DNA of 24,062 nucleotides from a virus: the IMG/VR virus record IMGVR_UViG_3300021962_000643, positions 1 to 24,062 of that record; one strand, 5' to 3'. Positions 20,069-21,828 of this stretch are shown here, piece by piece. A program made the translations under genes and the position numbers. Position 1 is the first letter of the stretch, and each line of letters begins with the position of its first letter. The notes under the pieces were generated by a model. It did not search any database and was not told where the DNA came from. It saw only the letters and a program-made list of their open reading frames with translations.

Positions 20069-20352
20069 TGAAAGGCGATCTGCAATGGTACAAGGCTATG
20101 TGGTCAACACGACAGAATCATCAATGCGAAGAGTGTGGACTACGTCTACCTCACTTCAGTCCAGCATTCATCTCACATATCATTACCAAAGGAAGTTATC
20201 CGAGTTTGAGGCAACATCCCGAAAATTGGATGCTATACTGTATGGATTGTCATCAGAAATGGGAATTTGGGAAGAGGACGGAGATGAAGACCCATACGAG
20301 AGCGTTGGAGATTGCTGATCGCCTTAAAAGAGAATATCATGAATCACGGTAG
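20068..20352 (+). CDS. Small HNH-like zinc protein
   Basis: A 94-aa protein with two zinc-type cysteine pairs, C20-x2-C23 and C58-x2-C61, and HNH-like residues between and after them (H37, N53, H62 in 'CHQKWEFG'). The arrangement resembles small HNH endonucleases and the NinG/Rap phage recombination family. In a recombination operon it may nick or cut DNA structures. The catalytic His is not in a typical 'DH' pair, so activity is uncertain and it could be a structural zinc protein. It starts in the exonuclease stop codon and overlaps the methyltransferase start by 14 bases. Confidence 0.7.
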   Translation: MKGDLQWYKAMWSTRQNHQCEECGLRLPHFSPAFISHIITKGSYPSLRQHPENWMLYCMDCHQKWEFGKRTEMKTHTRALEIADRLKREYHESR

Positions 20353-21271
20353 TTTATTTAGTGGGATTGGAGGATTTGATCTAGCAGCGGAGTGGATGGG
20401 ATGGGAGAATAAGTTTCATTGCGACATCAATCCTTTTAGTAGAAAATTATGTAGTTTTTATTGGCCTCAGGCCCAAAGTTATGACAACATCAAGACAACT
20501 GACTTTAGAATTTGGAGAGGAAAAATCGATGTCCTCTCTGGTGGATTTCCTTGCCAGCCCTTCTCCACAGCAGGAAAAAGGATGGGAAAAGAAGATGACC
20601 GCCATCTTTGGCCCGAAATGCTCCGGGCAATCCGAGAAATCAAACCCCGATATGTCGTGGGGGAAAATGTTCGTGGAATCGCTAGTTGGTCGGACGGATT
20701 GGTTTTCGAAGAGGTGTTCGCTGACTTGGAAGGTGCAGGTTACGAAGTCCAAGCGTTTCTTCTTCCAGCTGTCGGCATTAACGCCCCCCACAAAAGGGAC
20801 AGATTTTACTTTGTTGCTAAAGACACCAGCAGCGATGGATGCATACAGCGAGAATCTGAGCAAGAAGGAGCAGCGGTTCGGGAACTCCGGGACCTTAGCA
20901 CAGGAGGTAGCGACAGGGTTCATTTACAAGAGGGGGATATTGCCAACTCCGAACAGTTGCGATTGGAACACGGCAACAAAACCCGAAACGTACATAGCAC
21001 GATCACAGAGGCACAAGGAGAAGAACGTAACTCTCCAAATGACTCTGAGACAGTTGACAATGTTTGTTCCCAACAAGGTGGACCATCCGAAGCTTGGAAC
21101 TGGTTCCCAATTAAATCCCCACTTTGTAGCGGAGATGATGGGCTTCCCAACGAATTGGACGGACTTACCTTTCCTACCTGGAGAAAACAAAGCATAATGG
21201 GGTATGGTAACGCCATTGTTCCACAAATCGCTTATCGTATATTTGCAACTATAGATGAAACAAGCAATTGA
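20339..21271 (+). CDS. DNA cytosine-C5 methyltransferase
   Basis: A 310-aa enzyme that transfers a methyl group from S-adenosylmethionine to C5 of cytosine in a specific DNA site. The ATG at 20339 is preferred to an upstream in-frame TTG at 20312 because motif I begins at residue 5. Motifs in order: I 'SLFSGIGGFD' (5-14), IV 'GGFPCQPFS' with catalytic Cys72, VI 'ENV' (109-111), VIII 'HKRDRFY' (151-157), and X 'YGNAIVPQIAY' near the C-terminus (289-299). The target-recognition region (about 165-270) is short, polar and low in hydrophobics. No restriction enzyme is adjacent, so it probably protects phage DNA from host restriction. It contains an ORF in another frame (20481-21197). Confidence 0.9.
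   Translation: MNHGSLFSGIGGFDLAAEWMGWENKFHCDINPFSRKLCSFYWPQAQSYDNIKTTDFRIWRGKIDVLSGGFPCQPFSTAGKRMGKEDDRHLWPEMLRAIREIKPRYVVGENVRGIASWSDGLVFEEVFADLEGAGYEVQAFLLPAVGINAPHKRDRFYFVAKDTSSDGCIQRESEQEGAAVRELRDLSTGGSDRVHLQEGDIANSEQLRLEHGNKTRNVHSTITEAQGEERNSPNDSETVDNVCSQQGGPSEAWNWFPIKSPLCSGDDGLPNELDGLTFPTWRKQSIMGYGNAIVPQIAYRIFATIDETSN
20481..21197 (+). CDS. Overlapping ORF nested in the methyltransferase gene, 238 aa
   Basis: A 238-codon frame, +1 relative to the methyltransferase, lies entirely inside it. The sequence does not look random: 'RCSLTWKVQVTKSKRFFFQL' (about residues 79-98), 'LLKTP' and 'ILPTP' motifs, and 'SQLNPHFVAEMMGFPTNW' near the C-terminus. From memory, sequences with 'SLTWK', repeated 'LPTP' and 'LNP.FV..MMGFP..W' occur as separate hypothetical proteins beside phage cytosine methyltransferases. 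The alternative is that conserved methyltransferase codons drag a conserved shadow frame. The start is uncertain: ATG at 20481 or 20529. No function is assigned; confidence refers to it being translated. Confidence 0.4.
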   Translation: MTTSRQLTLEFGEEKSMSSLVDFLASPSPQQEKGWEKKMTAIFGPKCSGQSEKSNPDMSWGKMFVESLVGRTDWFSKRCSLTWKVQVTKSKRFFFQLSALTPPTKGTDFTLLLKTPAAMDAYSENLSKKEQRFGNSGTLAQEVATGFIYKRGILPTPNSCDWNTATKPETYIARSQRHKEKNVTLQMTLRQLTMFVPNKVDHPKLGTGSQLNPHFVAEMMGFPTNWTDLPFLPGENKA

Positions 21272-21751: not shown

Positions 21752-21824
21752 GCCACCTTAGCTCAGTTGGTAGAGCTTCTGATTTGTAATCAGATGGTCG
21801 TTGGTTCGAATCCGACAGGTGGCT
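21752..21824 (+). tRNA. tRNA-Thr (anticodon UGU)
   Basis: A full cloverleaf of 73 bases: acceptor GCCACCT (21752-21758) with AGGTGGC (21817-21823), D stem GCTC/GAGC, anticodon stem TCTGA/TCAGA with loop TTTGTAA (anticodon TGT at 21785-21787), and T arm GTTGG/CCGAC with loop TTCGAAT. The discriminator base is T and CCA is not encoded, so it must be added after transcription. It reads ACA. It sits between two protein genes with 7 and 4 base gaps, so it has no promoter of its own visible here. It probably supplements the host pool for ACA codons. Confidence 0.95.
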
Positions 21825-21828
21825 CAAA

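Follow-up and report, generated by a model that had tools for sequence, protein, structure and literature searches.

A phage C5-cytosine methyltransferase locus that most likely encodes two subunits in superimposed reading frames

A C5-cytosine methyltransferase gene in a 24,062-base virus record (the window; coordinates count from its first letter) contains a second long reading frame nested entirely within it. Judging from sequence comparisons, we consider it highly probable that two superimposed frames of this locus, referred to here as alpha (catalytic) and beta (nested, +1), together specify a heterodimeric C5-cytosine methyltransferase like M.EcoHK31I.

RESULTS

The catalytic frame lacks a recognizable motif IX

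The alpha open reading frame (ORF) (20312/20339..21271, + strand) matched PF00145 at 4.8e-39 over residues 2-236 and phrog_363 at 3e-66. With a catalytic PCQ at 20549 and ENV at ~20663, it has the hallmarks of a C5-cytosine methyltransferase. Its features are as follows.

20339..21271 (+), alpha, predicted C5-cytosine methyltransferase catalytic subunit, 310 aa (PF00145, phrog_363)
20354..20386 (+), alpha motif I (LFSGIGGFDLA)
20522..20581 (+), alpha motif IV, catalytic region with PCQ, invariant in alignment A4
20654..20680 (+), alpha motif VI (GENVRGI)
20792..20818 (+), alpha motif VIII (KRDRFYFVA)
20819..21100 (+), alpha segment from motif VIII to the motif IX region; polar, predicted to be disordered, and showing no sign of alpha-frame constraint (selection test, pLDDT)
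21203..21232 (+), alpha motif X (YGNAIVPQIA)

The alpha profile aligned with M.HhaI and ordinary enzymes over motifs I to VIII only. Motif IX was not found in the alpha frame, and motif IX and a recognition domain were thus not found together in this chain. A single-chain model of alpha showed a confident catalytic domain and the motif X helix. The methyltransferase frame had initially been described as polar between motifs VIII and X, and this description held: the interval is 76% polar or glycine residues and is predicted to be disordered (alpha residues 187 to 248; pLDDT of <50), where a recognition domain would be expected to lie. From the selection pattern described below, 20819..21100 appears to encode the recognition region of beta in the +1 frame. 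Ordinary C5 methyltransferase genes in the bacterial genomes that also carry alpha-type genes have motif IX in frame and +1 runs of just 37 to 88 codons; the alpha-type genes of those genomes have no motif IX in frame and +1 runs of 227 to 368 codons.

An HNH-type ORF and a gene for a RecE-like exonuclease lie upstream of the methyltransferase gene, and the opposite strand of the window carries portal and virion-structural genes. No restriction enzyme gene adjoining the methyltransferase gene was recognized. A tRNA-Thr (TGT anticodon) is located at 21752-21825, just downstream of the methyltransferase region.

The nested frame ends in a motif IX-like sequence

The initial annotation reported a 238-codon +1-frame ORF lying wholly inside the methyltransferase gene, and we found it (238 codons plus stop) exactly as described, together with the RCSLTWK, LNPHFVAEMMGFPTNW, and two TP motifs (20814-20840 and 20937-20963) attributed to it.

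20481..21197 (+), beta, nested +1-frame ORF, 238 aa (phrog_1008), with a putative target-recognition part and motif IX
20712..20801 (+), beta conserved hairpin RCSLTWKVQVTKSKRFFFQLSALTPPTKGT, overlapping the alpha motif VI-VIII region
20814..20840 (+), beta first TP module (LLKTPAAMD)
20937..20963 (+), beta second TP module (ILPTPNSCD)
21108..21167 (+), beta putative motif IX (QLNPHFVAEMMGFPTNWTDL), overlapping alpha GDDGLPNELDGL

Beta matched phrog_1008 (PHROG 1008, "DNA methyltransferase") at 1.2e-21 over residues 17-229, and 87 of the 87 aligned beta homologues matched the same family. Searches with beta against Pfam, NCBIfam, and PDB sequences yielded nothing significant. The C terminus of beta (LNPxFVxxMMGFPxxWT) resembles motif IX, and in profile-profile comparisons with ordinary methyltransferases, the motif IX of beta was aligned exactly to theirs, although weakly (E values of 0.11 and 0.22); when motif X was added to the beta profile (A9), the alignment moved to the catalytic part instead. 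Modeled alone with AlphaFold, beta was poor (pLDDT of 61, pTM of 0.30) except for the hairpin at residues 80 to 100, where two strands were predicted with a pLDDT of ~89, and two helices. Residue W83 is invariant in alignment A3. A Foldseek search with this poor model found nothing and was uninformative.

Among the phage and viral loci considered below (L001-L088), the betas have 1 to 5 xTP modules and are 175 to 320 aa long. By analogy, this variable number could reflect tandem recognition modules like those of multispecific phage methyltransferases.

The nested frame is open in every related phage locus

A +1 frame might be open by chance or through the codon usage of alpha, with no beta protein being made. 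This one gene leaves some room for such an explanation: when the synonymous codons of alpha were shuffled 20,000 times, 26 shuffles retained an equally long +1 run, and therefore the single locus is unusual but not overwhelmingly so; moreover, strong conservation of alpha can mimic conservation of the +1 frame. Comparison across loci argues otherwise. In 88 phage or viral loci found by the beta sequence, all 88 of which have a nested +1 beta with a matching alpha, we counted 0 stops in the +1 frame versus 567 expected. The +2 frame of the same loci contained 1,548 stops versus 1,656 expected. Stop codons in the +1 frame of homologous genes had been named at the outset as an observation that would speak against dual coding, and none were seen in these 88 loci. 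Since these loci had been selected by beta, we repeated the search using alpha alone. All 80 viral loci so chosen, 35 of which are contigs outside the beta-chosen set, had beta in the +1 frame, a few being cut at contig ends. The same nesting was found in 73 of 73 loci from bacterial genomes, mostly Bacteroidota, a few of them frame broken. In view of these counts, of beta-frame selection that is limited to the ORF with clean controls, and of beta homologues that are in frame with the catalytic motifs or largely separate from them (see below), we regard chance opening as hardly credible.

Two groups of bacterial loci had irregular frames. In seven Bacteroides/Parabacteroides genome loci (L124, L125, L127, L128, L133, L135, and L154), alpha has TGA at conserved tryptophan codons and beta is open; the position affected is W19 of the alpha profile hit in the six loci that reach it, and others, e.g., W281, are affected in several. 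Recent decay, readthrough, and reading of TGA as tryptophan are all possible. In four others (L105, L137, L147, and L156), alpha and beta segments are joined in one ORF. We considered these as alpha-beta fusions and rejected them; since their frames are broken, probably by sequencing errors or decay, they were not used as fusion evidence.

Purifying selection acts on both frames, region by region

Each substitution in 106 related pairs was classed by its effect on both frames (bootstrap intervals are approximate because pairs share sequences). Alpha was strongly constrained between the beta start and motif VIII, and beta was constrained there as well (beta dNN/dNS of 0.72). Over motif IX, both frames were strongly constrained (0.31 for beta and 0.36 for alpha). 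With the same estimator, the beta frame gave control values of 1.16 before the ORF and 1.14 after it, the +2 frame gave dNN/dNS values of 1.55 to 2.11 throughout, and simulated alpha-only evolution gave ~1.0. A +1 frame evolving with no sign of selection would have counted against the initial proposal; instead, purifying selection was found inside the ORF and was absent on either side of it.

The interval between motifs VIII and IX bears on which subunit carries the recognition region. Beta might provide motif IX only, with the recognition domain residing in alpha, which is how M.EcoHK31I has been described (PMC3404938). In this interval, however, alpha was unconstrained (dNN/dSN of 1.39, dNS/dSS of 0.97) and predicted to be disordered, whereas beta was constrained (dNN/dNS of 0.71, dSN/dSS of 0.50). 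We consider a beta limited to motif IX improbable and place the recognition region in beta because the interval is constrained in that frame and not in alpha.

The start of beta is probably downstream of 20481

The initial annotation began the nested gene at 20481. The frame is indeed open from there, but this start is probably too early because constraint in the +1 frame is not seen until ~20595: the nonsynonymous/synonymous ratio in the beta frame was 1.01 to 1.24 upstream of 20595, whereas the four bins that follow this position gave 0.48 to 0.67. Some 38 codons at the beginning of the +1 ORF may therefore be untranslated or unconstrained.

20529..20531 (+), another candidate ATG for beta, having a strong Shine-Dalgarno-like sequence (ggagagg), by duplex energy
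20595..21197 (+), selected portion of beta, 200 aa if begun at ATG 20595; probable minimal beta gene

Shine-Dalgarno-like duplex energies were -2.8 kcal/mol at 20481, -8.6 kcal/mol at 20529, and -8.9 kcal/mol at 20595, and all three positions are possible starts; alpha itself has little Shine-Dalgarno-like pairing. The start position is not conserved between loci. ATG 20595 was dropped as a universal start, 34 of 182 loci having no start codon there, and GAT was not significantly preferred (Fisher P value of 0.15).

Actinophage relatives carry beta fused to, or apart from, the catalytic gene

Natural fusion and separation of beta provide its strongest link to the methyltransferase. In mycobacteriophage Quico gp77, motifs I to VIII, TP-rich repeats, RLAAAFPEWMMGWPAGWVT, and motif X occur in a single frame. 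In Firecracker gp5, Twister gp78, Lilbooboo gp33, and Lymara gp77, a beta-type segment and motif X share one ORF, which follows or partly overlaps the catalytic ORF; the beta-type proteins of Firecracker and Lymara are largely outside the alpha gene. A profile of the nested betas (A8) matched Firecracker gp5 at 1e-20, Quico gp77 at 1e-18, and Lymara gp77 at 2e-17 (E values for a nominal 10,000 sequences). All of these actinophage relatives have an IX-like motif directly before motif X, as ordinary enzymes do. We assigned motif IX to beta because the IX-like motif precedes motif X in the one-frame relatives.

Two other explanations were weighed. Beta might have a role of its own, as a regulator or in anti-restriction, and have nothing in common with the enzyme except the DNA that encodes both; its assembly with alpha is something that we infer, and beta alone has no recognizable fold. 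Nevertheless, alpha has neither motif IX nor a constrained recognition region, and Quico gp77 has a beta-like segment in frame between motifs VIII and X. We therefore judge an independent role to be unlikely. A regulatory or anti-restriction function for the nested product, as initially suggested, is most likely not the case, and beta is probably the part that alpha lacks, i.e., the recognition region and motif IX.

Alternatively, a programmed ribosomal frameshift could join alpha motifs I to VIII to the beta frame in one chain. The tandem actinophage versions raise the same question, and for Corndog gp7/gp6, the choice among two products, a frameshift, a hop, and an intron has been left open (PMC4351075). 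At the present locus, motif IX is closely followed by motif X in the alpha frame, and a shifted chain would be without the latter; moreover, beta is constrained from ~20595, upstream of motif VI and before any useful shift point. Given this loss of motif X and a constraint on beta that sets in long before motif VIII, we regard a single frameshifted chain as very improbable, and two separate subunits remain our preferred reading.

The initial proposal of extended dual coding is thus upheld by conservation of the open frame, by selection in both frames with controls, and by homologues that are in frame or mostly nonoverlapping; by these comparative criteria, dual coding at this locus is real.

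An intermediate split was observed at the loci of Gordonia phage CheeseTouch (L165) and Rabbitrun (L289), where the alpha frame contains both motif IX and motif X and the +1 frame contains a TP-rich segment resembling a recognition region.

Phages of diverse hosts carry nested betas

Nested betas were found in phages of Paenibacillus, Lacticaseibacillus, Porphyromonas, Bacteroides, Escherichia, Klebsiella, Salmonella, Vibrio, Xanthomonas, Synechococcus, and Mycobacterium and also on a Leptospira plasmid. The expectation that relatives sit beside methyltransferase genes as hypothetical proteins did not hold generally, as most of the phages examined nest them at the same +1 position. Annotators had already recorded the overlap as the Shelly "g55 internal gene," K1G ORF30/31, and the fKuEco01 "Mte8-like" gene. 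These records and PHROG 1008 represent the same nested family as beta and give no mechanism; the name of PHROG 1008 says methyltransferase, but beta is without motifs I to VIII. No paper describing the beta family as part of a two-subunit enzyme was found in the literature searched, most subscription journals lying outside it.

DISCUSSION

The locus is most likely, on the comparative data, a nested-subunit C5 methyltransferase. According to our model, alpha would supply the catalytic domain (motifs I to VIII) and a C-terminal helix with motif X, and beta, made in the +1 frame from a separate start within the gene, would supply the small domain, comprising the target-recognition region and motif IX. 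The two would fold together into one enzyme that methylates the phage genome, probably as protection against host restriction. We infer the translation of beta, its physical assembly with alpha, methylation activity, the target site, the start codon, and the anti-restriction role.

We also put forward, as a tentative and rather doubtful extension, the idea that the middle of the alpha frame is functionless and merely carries the +1 frame, such that specificity evolves without touching the catalytic frame and beta is swappable and possibly multispecific. In that reading, site choice, including gain and loss of TP modules (1 to 5 copies), would be able to evolve because the enclosing frame is functionless in midgene. 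If true, this would be a widespread phage gene design in which the same DNA segment serves both catalysis and site choice in superimposed frames.

Large functional overlaps have rarely been proven, and here the selected frame is visible region by region with internal controls. The two-subunit model would explain why many phage methyltransferase genes look incomplete, having no motif IX and what resembles junk in place of a recognition region. It would likewise account for the frequent absence of the nested protein from annotations or its listing as hypothetical. The model also suggests that methylation assays with alpha alone in these phages would yield false negatives, and it makes the question of whether the Corndog methylase consists of two products or a frameshifted one directly testable.

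M.EcoHK31I is the closest known counterpart of the enzyme proposed here, and in it, too, the gene for the large subunit encodes the small one in an alternative frame. This two-polypeptide C5 methyltransferase (YGGCCR) was reportedly described by Lee, Kam and Shaw in 1995. The large subunit of M.EcoHK31I contains motifs I to VIII and X as well as the predicted recognition domain, and the small subunit contains motif IX (PMC3404938). Compared by description rather than by sequence, alpha (I to VIII and X) and beta (IX) share this division of motifs. They differ in the recognition region, which the selection pattern places in beta here, no recognition domain having been found in the alpha frame. 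Moreover, M.EcoHK31I is part of a bacterial restriction-modification system, whereas no restriction gene was recognized beside this locus.

M.AquI is likewise one C5 methyltransferase naturally split into two subunits, but its split is in the variable region, the small subunit containing motif IX as well as motif X, a pattern that fits the tandem actinophage forms (Twister, Firecracker, and Lilbooboo) and not the nested form described here. The cluster O methylases, including Corndog gp7/gp6, also encode catalytic and C-terminal parts in different frames of the same DNA (PMC4351075); in their case, the overlap is partial and motif X is in the second ORF, as seen in the relative Firecracker. 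The nested arrangement, known from one bacterial enzyme, thus appears from the loci compared here to be common in phages, and the value of the present analysis lies in the breadth of nested-subunit C5 methyltransferases and in indicating which frame does what.
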